Shown: positions 41,562 through 47,022 of the stretch, piece by piece
Layout of the letters: every line of letters starts with the position of its first letter
Numbering within the stretch: the first letter of the stretch is position 1
Assembly (NCBI RefSeq): GCF_024172085.1
Contig: NZ_JAMZDZ010000001.1
Span: 1,054,001-1,118,000 of the forward strand
DNA: 64,000 bases
Direction of reading: 5' to 3'
Source: Hamadaea flava
GTDB taxonomy: Bacteria > Actinomycetota > Actinomycetes > Mycobacteriales > Micromonosporaceae
Made by a program: the position numbers and the translations under genes
The notes under the pieces: model-generated
The model's input: the letters and a program-made list of their open reading frames with translations, nothing else
Database searches by the model: none
What the model was told of the DNA's origin: nothing

Positions 41562-41694
41562 GGGCGCCTGCTCGGTCGCCCGATCGCCCTGCCGCCCGGC
41601 TCCGACGCCGGCCCGGTCGCCCTGCCGATTGGCGGCGGGCTCTCGACGGGTACGGCCCCGCGCTACGGCCTGGACGGCGTGGGGCAGCCGTAGC

Positions 41695-41771
41695 GGCTGG
41701 CGGCTGGCGGCTGGCGGCTGGCGGCTGGCGGCTGGCGGCTGGCGGCTGGCGGCTGGCGGCTGGCGGCTGGC
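41695..41771. repeat. 7-bp tandem repeat GGCTGGC, 11 copies
   Basis: Eleven perfect head-to-tail copies of GGCTGGC. The length is not a multiple of 3, so no protein frame is kept in phase; copy number is likely to vary by slippage. Confidence 0.95.
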
Positions 41772-41854
41772 GGCGGATGATCTCCGGACGGCCGAGCACC
41801 TATCTGGTTCAAGATCAGGTATCTGGGCTTCCGGAGATCCCTCCTGGAGCCACG

Positions 41855-44472: not shown

Positions 44473-44601
44473 AGCGGTCCCCTTCGCCATGGACACGTCG
44501 GCCCCGAACGAGCTGGCACATCCGACAGTAAGCGCAACAACCGCGCCAATACCGCGTTTCGCGAGAAATCCTCGACGGTGACAGCGACTACGATCATCTA
44601 C

Positions 44602-45783
44602 GTGCCCCGTACAGTGACGCTGGCCCTCCTGGACGCCGACGGCGCCCTGCTGGGCGCTCTGCCGCCGGTCGAGGTCGAGGTGCCGTGGTGGCAGGAGACC
44701 GCGAGCGTGATCGCGGCTGTCCAGGAGCGCTTCGGCATCGACGTCTCGGTCCTCCGGCTGCTGCACGCCCCGGAGCACTTCCCGGGCGGCGAGGTCACCT
44801 ATCTGGCCCAGACGACCGACCCGACGACCAGCCTGCCCGCCACCAGGGCTGTCGACGTCGATCTGAGCGATCACCCGTTGCGGCCGGACTACGCCAAGCC
44901 CGGCGGGCCGGACCGGAGCCTCGACTGGGCCGCCGAGCGGCTGCACGAGCTGGAGTTCGGGCCGATCGGCGCGGCGACCCAGATGCGTACCTGGAATCTG
45001 AGCGCGATCTGGCGGCTGGAGGCGGCCGCCGGGACGGTTTGGCTCAAGCAGGTCCCGGCGTTCTTCGCGCACGAGCCCGTGGTGCTGCGTTGGCTGGCCG
45101 CCGAGGGCTTCGGGCTGTCCGTGCCCATCCAGCTCGCCACCGACGGCAGTCGGATGCTGCTCGCCGAGCTGCCCGGGGTGGATCTCTACGCGGCCGGGCT
45201 CGGCGTCCGCGCGTCGATCGCCGCGACCCACCACCACATCCAGATCGAGGCGGCGGCGGAGGTCACGCGGCTCATCGGCCTCGGGGTCCCCGATCTCCGT
45301 GGCCCGCGCCTGACCGAGGTCGTCACCCGGGTCACCGACTGGTACGCCGAAAGCGATCCGGCGCTCGAAGCGCTCGTCGCGGGTCTGCCCGAGCGGTGGG
45401 CCGCGATCGACGAGTGCGGGCTGCCGGACACCCTCGTCCACGGGGATCTGCACCCCGGCAACGCTCGCGGCGACGAGGTCCACCAGGCGATCCTGGACTG
45501 GGGTGACTCGTTCGTCGGCCATCCGGGCTTCGACATCCTGCGGATGACCGAGCGGGTGACCGAGCCCGACGCGGCCGCGCTGGTCGAGGCGTGGGCGACG
45601 CGCTGGCAGCACGCCGTGCCCGGCTGCGACCCGGTGAAGGCGATCGACCTGCTGCGCCCGGTGGCCGCGCTGCGCAACGCCGCCACGTACGCCAGGTTCC
45701 TGGCCAACATCGAGCCGTCCGAGCACCCGTACCACGCGGGGGACGTGCCGTTCTGGCTGCGGCAGGCGGCTCTCGCGGCTTGA
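44602..45783 (+). CDS. Aminoglycoside phosphotransferase (APH)-family kinase
   Basis: A 393-residue kinase-fold protein. The first 95 residues are a NUDIX-like N-terminal region (PRTVTLALLDADGALLG to HFPGGEVTYLAQT) as in some actinobacterial phosphotransferases; the kinase part has AGTVWLKQVP (ATP lysine), VHGDLHPGN (catalytic loop, Asp about 284) and AILDWGDSFVGHPGFDI (metal site). The substrate is unknown; context gives no resistance cluster. GTG at 44602 lies seven bases after TACGAT (leaderless). Precedes the trpS leader. Confidence 0.82.
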   Translation: MPRTVTLALLDADGALLGALPPVEVEVPWWQETASVIAAVQERFGIDVSVLRLLHAPEHFPGGEVTYLAQTTDPTTSLPATRAVDVDLSDHPLRPDYAKPGGPDRSLDWAAERLHELEFGPIGAATQMRTWNLSAIWRLEAAAGTVWLKQVPAFFAHEPVVLRWLAAEGFGLSVPIQLATDGSRMLLAELPGVDLYAAGLGVRASIAATHHHIQIEAAAEVTRLIGLGVPDLRGPRLTEVVTRVTDWYAESDPALEALVAGLPERWAAIDECGLPDTLVHGDLHPGNARGDEVHQAILDWGDSFVGHPGFDILRMTERVTEPDAAALVEAWATRWQHAVPGCDPVKAIDLLRPVAALRNAATYARFLANIEPSEHPYHAGDVPFWLRQAALAA

Positions 45784-45796
45784 CCGATCCAGCTGC

Positions 45797-45802
45797 TATG
45801 GT
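45797..45802 (+). promoter_or_regulatory. -10 box of the trpS leader transcript
   Basis: TATGGT lies 7 bases before the ATG of the leader peptide at 45810, so transcription should begin at or next to that ATG. No clear -35 box is needed for this class of actinobacterial promoter. Confidence 0.6.
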
Positions 45803-45809
45803 TGATCGC

Positions 45810-45866
45810 ATGGACTCTCGCGTCCTCATTCTGTACCGATGGCGGCTGTCGACGTTCTCCAGCTGA
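45810..45866 (+). CDS. Trp-containing leader peptide of trpS
   Basis: An 18-codon open frame, MDSRVLILYRWRLSTFSS, directly after a -10 box and 80 bases before trpS. Its single Trp codon (TGG, 45840-45842) falls in the left arm of a hairpin followed by a T-rich tract. This is the layout of ribosome-mediated transcription attenuation, as reported for the auxiliary tryptophanyl-tRNA synthetase gene of Streptomyces. The leader has one Trp rather than tandem Trp codons, so the control may be weaker or different. Confidence 0.6.
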   Translation: MDSRVLILYRWRLSTFSS

Positions 45867-45900
45867 TCCGTCCGTACCACCCTTTTCTCTTTTTCCTTTC
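45833..45900 (+). terminator. Attenuator hairpin and T-rich tract upstream of trpS
   Basis: The left arm GTAC-C-GATGG-C-GGCTG (45833-45848) pairs with CAGCT-GAT-CCGTC-C-GTAC (45860-45877) in an interrupted stem with an 11-base loop. It is followed by CCCTTTTCTCTTTTTCCTTT, unusual for this GC-rich DNA. The arm covers the leader's Trp codon and the other arm its stop codon, so ribosome position would decide whether it forms. Confidence 0.55.
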
Positions 45901-45945
45901 CCGCGTGGCCCCACTGCGCCCGCGTGCCTCCGAAAGGCTTCTGCC

Positions 45946-47022
45946 ATGTCTGAGAACGTCATGCCCGAAAACGTCATGCGAGCGAACGTCATGCTCACCG
46001 GCGACCGCCCCACCGGCAAACTCCACCTCGGGCACTACGTCGGTTCCATCGCCAACCGAGTCCGCCTGCAGCACGCGTACAACAGCTTCTTCATCATCGC
46101 GGACCTGCACATGCTGACCACGAAGAACAGTCGCGCGGACATCGAGCGGTCGGCCGGCAACGCGCGGGACATGGTGCTGGACATGCTCGCGGCGGGGATC
46201 GAGCCGGAGAGCGCGACCTTCTACCTGCAGTCGGCCATTCCTGAGGTCGGTGACCTGAACACGCTGTTCCAGAACCTCGTGACGGTGCCCCGGTTGGAGC
46301 GCGTGCCGTCGCTGAAGGACATGGCGCGCGACTCCGGCAAGGACGAGATGCCCTACGGCCTGCTCGGCTACCCGGTCCTCCAGGCGGCCGACATCCTGTG
46401 CGTCAAGGCGACCGCCGTCCCGGTGGGCAAGGACAACGCGGCGCACGTCGAGGTCACCCGGGAGATCGCCCGGCGGTTCAACCACCTCTACGGCGACACG
46501 TTCCCCGTGCCGGAGTTGATCCACGCCGACGTCCCGACCCTGGTGGGCACGGACGGGCAGGCGAAGATGAGCAAGAGCATCGGCAACACGATCCTGCTCT
46601 CCGACGACGCCGCAGCGGTACGCCGCCGCGTCATGGGCATGTACACCGACCCGGATCGGGTGCGCGCCGACGTCCCGGGCAAGGTCGAGGGCAACCCGGT
46701 GTTCATCTACCACGACGCCTTCAACGACGACAAGGCGCAGGTCGAGGAGCTGAAGGAGCGTTACCGCACCGGCCGGGTGGGCGACGTGGAGGTGAAGGAG
46801 AAGCTGGCCGCCGCGCTCAACCGGTTCCTGGACCCGATGCGCGAACGCCGCGCCAAGTACGCCGCCGAACCCGGCCTGGTCGACCAGTTGATCGTCGAGG
46901 GCACCGAGCGTACGCGGGAAGTGGTGCGGCAGACCGTCTTCGACGCGCGTAAGGCGATGGGGCTGACCTCGACGTTCCAGGCGATCCGCCGCAAGGCGCA
47001 GGCGACCACGAAGTCACGGTGA
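45946..47022 (+). CDS. trpS: Tryptophanyl-tRNA synthetase
   Basis: A 358-residue class I aminoacyl-tRNA synthetase that charges tRNA-Trp. The HIGH motif reads LHLGHYVGS (in GDRPTGKLHLGHYVGS), and the KMSKS loop is GQAKMSKSIGN; MPYGLLGYPVLQAADIL is the tryptophan-binding helix region. The ATG at 45946 follows GAAAGG. Behind a Trp-codon leader and terminator, this may be an auxiliary, antibiotic-tolerant type rather than the only copy in the genome; sequence alone does not show that. Confidence 0.93.
   Translation: MSENVMPENVMRANVMLTGDRPTGKLHLGHYVGSIANRVRLQHAYNSFFIIADLHMLTTKNSRADIERSAGNARDMVLDMLAAGIEPESATFYLQSAIPEVGDLNTLFQNLVTVPRLERVPSLKDMARDSGKDEMPYGLLGYPVLQAADILCVKATAVPVGKDNAAHVEVTREIARRFNHLYGDTFPVPELIHADVPTLVGTDGQAKMSKSIGNTILLSDDAAAVRRRVMGMYTDPDRVRADVPGKVEGNPVFIYHDAFNDDKAQVEELKERYRTGRVGDVEVKEKLAAALNRFLDPMRERRAKYAAEPGLVDQLIVEGTERTREVVRQTVFDARKAMGLTSTFQAIRRKAQATTKSR

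Follow-up and report, generated by a model that had tools for sequence, protein, structure and literature searches.

The auxiliary tryptophanyl-tRNA synthetase gene (trpS2) in the window, that is, the whole 64-kb stretch of DNA that was analyzed, is preceded by a short leader that is real and is probably a regulatory, reduced variant of a known device. To judge from their sequences, the leaders of related trpS2 genes carry the end of an upstream gene in which a TrpRS-like part is fused to an aminotransferase. This origin of the leader in the relatives is a more interesting finding than the element of the window itself. Leader-peptide attenuators are textbook devices and their origin is rarely visible; in the relatives, graded stages connect an intact enzyme gene, by way of eroded copies, with leaders of ca. 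22 to 70 codons, in front of the same target and with the Trp codon kept. Should experiments bear out control by Trp, the end of a neighboring biosynthetic gene would here have given rise to a regulatory leader, in a form open to testing. It would further show how one Trp codon can suffice and how the sensor can persist while the sequence separating it from trpS2 is replaced.

The trpS2 leader and its conservation within the genus

The window (GC content, 70.5%) belongs to a genome of 8.86 Mb, and the features of the leader region are collected in Table 1. Direct reading bore out the initial annotation, which had described an 18-codon frame starting 7 nt after a TATGGT box and holding a single Trp codon. 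Transcription is predicted to start at or near the A of the ATG at 45810, which would make the frame leaderless; a consensus promoter scan returned no promoters. The lone TGG is codon 11 (45840 to 45842) and follows CGA, a rare Arg codon (3 of the 91 Arg codons in three genes of the window). From the leader stop to the start of trpS2 there are 79 nt.

Table 1. Features of the leader region, with positions in the window, and eroded gene copies at related loci
Feature	Position	Strand	Basis or remark
APH-family phosphotransferase gene upstream of the leader	44578..45783	+	Pfam APH, 8e-13
-10 box, TATGGT	45797..45802	+	Sequence; unchanged in G080
Leader ORF, 18 aa, MDSRVLILYRWRLSTFSS, stop TGA 45864-45866	45810..45866	+	Sequence; identical peptide in G080
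Interrupted hairpin, GTACCGATGGCGGCTG / CAGCTGATCCGTCCGTAC	45833..45877	+	Folding; pair-preserving change at 45870 in G080
CGA-TGG, rare Arg codon and single, putatively regulatory Trp codon	45837..45842	+	Motif of relatives, codon usage
CACCC, 5 unpaired nt as spacer between stem and U-rich tract, atypical for an intrinsic terminator	45878..45882	+	Sequence
U-rich tract TTTTCTCTTTTT	45883..45894	+	Sequence; unchanged in G080
CCTTTC, can pair with the Shine-Dalgarno sequence GAAAGG at 45932-45937	45895..45900	+	Minimum-energy structure
Shine-Dalgarno sequence of trpS2, GAAAGG	45932..45937	+	Sequence
Auxiliary trpS (TrpRS2)	45946..47022	+	TIGR00233, 292.6 bits
Eroded fusion-gene copies in L260, L261, L262, and L263	about 2600-2950	trpS orientation	Intermediates from intact enzyme to short leader

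The Trp codon was also correctly placed inside the left arm (45833 to 45848) of an interrupted hairpin, whose right arm (45860 to 45877) contains the stop. Folding energies, which had been proposed as a check, agree with such a structure: the hairpin folded alone reaches -17.3 kcal/mol and the 136-nt leader -38.8 kcal/mol (z, -2.5; 4 of 200 shuffles equally good). The T-rich run that had been said to stand out in GC-rich DNA does so, TTTTCTCTTTTT being the sole 12-mer with at least 10 T on either strand of the 64 kb. Likewise, a folded 45-mer followed within 18 nt by 12 nt with at least 9 T was found only here when both strands of the window were scanned. Stem and U-rich tract are thus both present, 5 nt apart, and a terminator scan gave no hits; an Rfam search of the window found no family at or above its threshold.

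A DNA search with the exact leader (E ≤ 0.01) matched 13 of 354 genomes of the family, of which only the own genome and that of the closest species (G080, locus L004) carry trpS at the locus; the matches in the other 11 genomes lie elsewhere. Between the window and G080, only 2 of 104 nt differ (45795 to 45898), against a background of 9.3% over 2,421 columns and differences of 19% and 16% at the third codon positions of two flanking genes, and the next 47 nt downstream of 45898 have 8 differences. Since as few as 2 differences recur in four other, non-overlapping windows among 2,318 sliding windows of 104 nt, the freezing of the leader is strong and not unique. The Trp codon and the stem, for which conservation among relatives had been suggested as a check, are kept in this species, as are the whole peptide and the -10 box. 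One of the changes, G to A at 45870 in G080, replaces U.G by U-A in the pair formed with the first base of the Trp codon (45840); the element is shared by two sequences only, so covariation rests on this one pair.

In the same genus, genome G061 (locus L005) has a leader at the same position, MRVARSILRAQGLRFRAGARWC. In all three genomes of the genus that carry trpS2 (of four), namely, those of the window, G080, and G061, the APH-family gene stands upstream of the leader and trpS2. The 240 nt between leader stop and trpS2 in G061 (L005, 1252 to 1491) are full of predicted hairpins, an output region unlike that of the window. At its N terminus, the trpS2 of the window (45946 to 45993) has a 30-nt in-frame insertion with ENVM-type repeats (MSENVMPENVMRANVML) that is absent in G080 (MSENVML). 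Elsewhere in the window, at about 41629 to 41800, a repeated stretch with GGWRLAA repeats in one reading frame was seen by eye.

Related trpS2 genes and the origin of their leaders

A second trpS, which the initial annotation had advised looking for, is present in the genome (C1:1099985, in the window, and C1:4279655). In the PDB, the window enzyme matched 6ncr (4e-113) and 2a4m (5e-92), the latter named tryptophanyl-tRNA synthetase II and presumably the Deinococcus enzyme. Relatives also occur in Spirochaetes, Chloroflexi, Chlamydiae-type, and other bacteria. Close relatives (E ≤ 1e-90) were found in 117 of the 354 family genomes and in just 3 of 44 genera, namely, three genomes of the own genus (of four), 113 of the genus that includes the Micromonospora entries, and a single Actinoplanes genome. 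In a list of the 80 best named loci, which may omit near relatives of the window genome, Actinobacteria from outside the family were represented by Streptomyces durbertensis, Spongiactinospora, and a metagenome genome of the Mycobacteriales. When 396 genomes were sampled evenly across the phylum, four had a match at E ≤ 1e-80; the own genome and one of the same family account for two of these. The enzymes of Micromonospora, Actinoplanes regularis, S. durbertensis, and Spongiactinospora form a group with that of the window. The gene had been proposed as a possible counterpart of the Streptomyces auxiliary trpS; the auxiliary TrpRS of the presumed Streptomyces genus falls in a different clade and is 39 to 43% identical. 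Those enzymes would be of the indolmycin-resistant type; the window enzyme and this other auxiliary class have a TGDRPTG motif in common (seen in 25 and 24 loci of that class), a region that may bear on indolmycin resistance.

Besides the window and G080, 89 upstream regions from the 117 genomes were examined (26 were not fetched), and 87 of them contain the motif [FY]R[AD]G.RW used for selection. The other two are L009, which is masked, and L220, which the start pattern missed although a leader is visible. The Arg codon before Trp is CGA in 86 of the 87, the exception being an eroded copy (L217). By the sequence after the Trp codon, 5 of the 87 regions are like the intact enzyme, 5 have tails of 8 to 24 codons, and 77 have short tails. 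An in-frame ATG or GTG lies 6 nt (48 regions) or 7 nt (33 regions) past TANNNT in 81 of the 87, and 75 of the 77 short-tail leaders have a leaderless start, the other two being masked upstream. All 75 readable short leaders are leaderless and have exactly one Trp, so the combination that had been called unusual is the usual one in these relatives.

Among 82 distinct related regions, the maximum was 7 T in 12 nt; these relatives lack a U-tract, and that of the window is new. A stop-enclosing hairpin of at least 5 pairs after the Trp codon was found in 58 of 59 distinct segments (mean z, -1.9), and is only moderately supported, given that 72% of the shuffles form one as well. The consensus RNA fold of 26 leaders from the Micromonospora genus has 44 pairs, 8 of them changed on both sides, and 3 of these 8 lie in an early hairpin (columns 24 to 58); the four pairs AUGG (with the Trp codon):CCGU vary in one pair by G-U and hence give no covariation support. 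The leader of the Spongiactinospora trpS, which is in the clade of the window enzyme, reads MIRASNWWWPS and is followed by a GC hairpin.

Selection was measured on leaders of equal length only (75 rows, 654 pairs). Codons -22 to +1 around the Trp codon had a pS of 0.22 and a pN/pS of 0.23, against 0.29 and 0.90 for codons -36 to -25; the corresponding values were 0.37 and 0.22 for codons -22 to -13, 0.14 and 0.20 for codons -12 to +1, and 0.29 and 0.19 for trpS codons 1 to 239 (23 loci). An earlier comparison by distance from the Trp codon, which ignored gaps and can inflate early change, gave the same picture. With pN/pS low at the end and 0.90 at the start, the end appears to be conserved as a peptide and the start to drift, and by this measure the last ca. 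24 codons of the relatives' leaders are under selection at the amino acid level; the motif used to select the rows lies within the conserved end, which gives a slight bias toward peptide conservation. Arg at -7 is present in 87 of 87, and Arg -5, Gly -3, Arg -1, and Trp 0 belong to the selection motif itself (87 of 89). The low pS of the last codons would fit an overlapping RNA pairing. Alternatively, the conservation may be inherited from an enzyme, a possibility against which the drifting first part argues.

The enzyme in question is encoded directly before trpS2 in S. durbertensis, A. regularis, and some Micromonospora, where an intact gene consists of a TrpRS-like part (PDB 3a04, 5e-22, which we take to be a TrpRS of the archaeal/eukaryotic type) fused to a HisC-like aminotransferase; the C terminus of the L039 fusion contains ...RRDQVLALLRARGLRFRDGARWQLPSMIQVHL... 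Three leaders were compared singly with the fusion gene product of L038 and matched it at 65% over 34 aa (L007; E, 1e-13), 67% over 24 aa (L021; 1e-7), and 72% over 18 aa (L005, from the genus of the window; 6e-6); the remaining leaders were compared by motif. The eroded copies L260, L262, and L263 keep about residues 530 to 578 and 640 to 702, and in L261 only the second piece was detected. Their frame starts with TACGGT-GGTTCC-ATG in L260, L261, and L262; in L263, the Trp motif is out of frame with the upstream piece. At the same place, the intact copies L038, L039, L264, and L265 have TACGGT-N6-ATG, formed by codons of VYGE(Y/F)M, and a fifth, that of S. durbertensis, has TACGCC and CGC-TGG. 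With box and CGA-TGG already in intact copies, the sensor may have worked in the enzyme gene before its loss. A YG..M start is seen in several of 15 aligned leaders; the commonest box in 81 leader starts is TACCGT (44, with TACGGT in 11), so descent of the box from Tyr-Gly codons is clear in some leaders only. In a trpS2 protein tree of 38 rows, the four intact-gene rows need three changes on well supported branches, which is consistent with repeated loss of the fusion gene. In the same tree, the window and G080 fall together (97/84) with G061 and with Spongiactinospora, whose branch is long.

It seems possible, if somewhat short of probable, that the leader, its -10 box, start codon, and Trp sensor are all in-frame remains of the fusion gene rather than formed de novo. 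By this descent, the Tyr-Gly codons of the enzyme (TACGGT) would have become the -10 box, the next Met the start, and a Trp codon near the C terminus the sensor. Micromonospora relatives would keep the last ca. 24 codons as a peptide, which possibly stalls the ribosome, and the window leader would be the most reduced form, with hairpin and U-tract newly gained as output. The leader of G061 carries the aminotransferase motif; that of the window occupies the orthologous position, has a -10 box of similar kind and a leaderless start, and contains CGATGGCGG, but lacks the intervening motif. Its descent from the fusion gene is likely by position and is not proven by similarity, the peptide being too short. 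A derivation of the window peptide from the aminotransferase was not borne out by sequence: the two have nothing in common beyond CGATGGCGG, a leaderless start, and the type of box, and the peptide also resembles leaders that end in WWRLH. These (L171, L177, and L178) stand before auxiliary trpS genes of the other class in the family of the window and contain TGGCGGCTG, nine bases that recur unchanged in the leader of the window.

The fusion gene is also part of a small cluster in L037 (100 to 6112) and L038 (149 to 6007), with a nucleotidyltransferase-like gene, the fusion gene, trpS2, an APH-family kinase, and a luciferase-like (F420-type) oxidoreductase, assigned by Pfam/NCBIfam for one or two members per kind and by position or appearance for the rest; in L039, the analysis covered the fusion gene and trpS2. 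It is a candidate biosynthetic cluster with trpS2 as self-protection.

How the leader may act

On balance, we lean toward a ribosome-mediated transcription attenuator that would induce the auxiliary TrpRS when charged tRNA-Trp is scarce, and from the arrangement of the parts we infer its start point, translation, termination, and Trp response as follows. Transcription would start at the leader AUG, and a 70S ribosome would translate behind RNA polymerase. When Trp-tRNA is short, because cells starve for Trp or their main TrpRS is inhibited, the ribosome would wait at codon 11 and cover the left arm, so that the hairpin would be open while the U-tract is made and polymerase would continue into trpS2. 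When Trp-tRNA is plentiful, the ribosome would reach the stop and leave, the hairpin would form, and polymerase would pause or terminate near the U-rich tract. The rare CGA before Trp may help to align the ribosome with polymerase.

The design of ribosome-mediated attenuation recognized in the initial annotation stands in its parts and in the Trp codon within the hairpin, but the classical pair of terminator and antiterminator is missing and the 5-nt spacing is poor. No alternation of antiterminator and terminator was seen in the folds of the window or G080, and neither a second terminator hairpin nor a complementary segment was found before trpS2. In the predicted fold, a ribosome on the stop also blocks the right arm, so termination needs fast release. 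These points and the empty terminator scan keep our preference for attenuation slight.

The alternative closest to it is translational attenuation, in which CCTTTC would mask the Shine-Dalgarno sequence of trpS2 and stalling would free it. The two do pair in the predicted fold, and a comparable pairing is predicted in G080, beside a changed small hairpin. However, the unpaired probability of the Shine-Dalgarno sequence hardly responds to a ribosome on the Trp codon (window, 0.23 free, 0.24 on the Trp codon, and 0.27 on the stop; G080, 0.19, 0.14, and 0.31), while the same mask abolishes the hairpin. A stall that removes the hairpin and does not raise Shine-Dalgarno exposure fits read-through in starvation and speaks against a translational switch, which we consider unlikely.

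The leader peptide, and not the codon alone, might hold the ribosome at Trp. Such peptide-assisted stalling would explain the contrast in pN/pS between the two parts of the relatives' leaders and the invariant Arg at -7, yet the window peptide retains only RW(R) of their motif, RNA pairing may add to the constraint (pS, 0.14 at -12 to +1 versus 0.37 at -22 to -13), and the conservation may partly be enzyme inheritance; we think it improbable. Equally improbable is an ordinary 5' region in which hairpin and T-tract are incidental. The scan tools found no consensus sites, as would be expected of such a region, but the freezing relative to the background, the uniqueness of the arrangement in the window, and the Trp leaders that recur before trpS2 relatives argue otherwise. 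Lower still we place control by Rho or another pyrimidine tract-dependent factor, with the 28-nt G-free stretch at 45875 to 45902 as loading site: this C/U-rich stretch follows right after the stop, but a stall at Trp would expose it and reduce expression during starvation, the opposite of what a synthetase gene needs. A trp attenuator of the classical type, with four segments and its own 3:4 terminator, as other auxiliary trpS leaders seem to have, is very improbable, because the right arm, once freed, is predicted to pair within the trpS2 coding region and no complementary segment was seen before the gene.

Comparison with known systems

An attenuator is reportedly part of the regulation of the auxiliary, indolmycin-resistant trpS of Streptomyces, as said to have been described by Vecchione and Sello in 2010. 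We compared the window with 53 loci of the other auxiliary class, 27 from the presumed Streptomyces genus and 26 from the family of the window (Actinoplanes and other Micromonosporaceae). A leaderless Trp leader was present in 48 of the 53, with a hairpin that starts at or next to the last Trp codon; 9 of the 48 have one Trp, 17 have a run of at least 4 T downstream, and second GC hairpins of the GGCCGTCC/GGACGGCC type were seen by eye downstream. No leaderless arrangement with a near-terminal Trp codon was seen by eye before the main trpS and trpE; before trpE, another reading frame reaches up to the gene.

In the presumed Streptomyces genus (one of whose enzymes has named plasmid matches in Embleya and Streptomyces at 72 to 79%), the leaders of 24 of the 27 loci resemble that of the window in being leaderless frames that end in (W/R)WR.., with a hairpin that runs from the Trp codon and encloses the stop. 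Unlike the window, 22 of these 24 have two Trp codons, the remaining two having one (MTSVPCRNRWRSS and MTSVLCLNRWRSS); they lie about 250 to 400 nt before the matched part of trpS, and in 14 of the 24, a run of at least 4 T lies 51 to 59 nt past the leader stop.

An auxiliary TrpRS1 is given as indolmycin resistant (PMC9437257), and a 2005 study predicted attenuators upstream of Streptomyces trpS (PMC1262725). The trp operon attenuators of Streptomyces and Corynebacterium described there likewise place Trp codons in a short leader ahead of a Trp-related gene, but have two or three such codons and complementary triple segments, neither of which the leader in the window has. The actinobacterial ilvB leaders (PMC1262725) are like that of the window in placing regulatory codons inside a terminator-like hairpin and differ in the amino acids. 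Within the openly licensed literature, searched by title and start of the abstract, and with subscription journals mostly outside its scope, we found no Micromonospora trpS leader and no leader peptide derived from an enzyme remnant. A published case is TrpL2 before trpS in Streptomyces lividans TK24, which is leaderless by RNA-seq and 13 aa long, with one Trp (MMTRTCTQLWRAA) and hairpins downstream (PMC8079986). With this leader and the 9 of 48 single-Trp leaders of the other class, the different sensing rule that had been suggested for a leaderless frame with one Trp is not needed. TrpL2 has two hairpins and no U-rich tract, whereas the leader in the window has one hairpin and a U-rich tract (PMC8079986).
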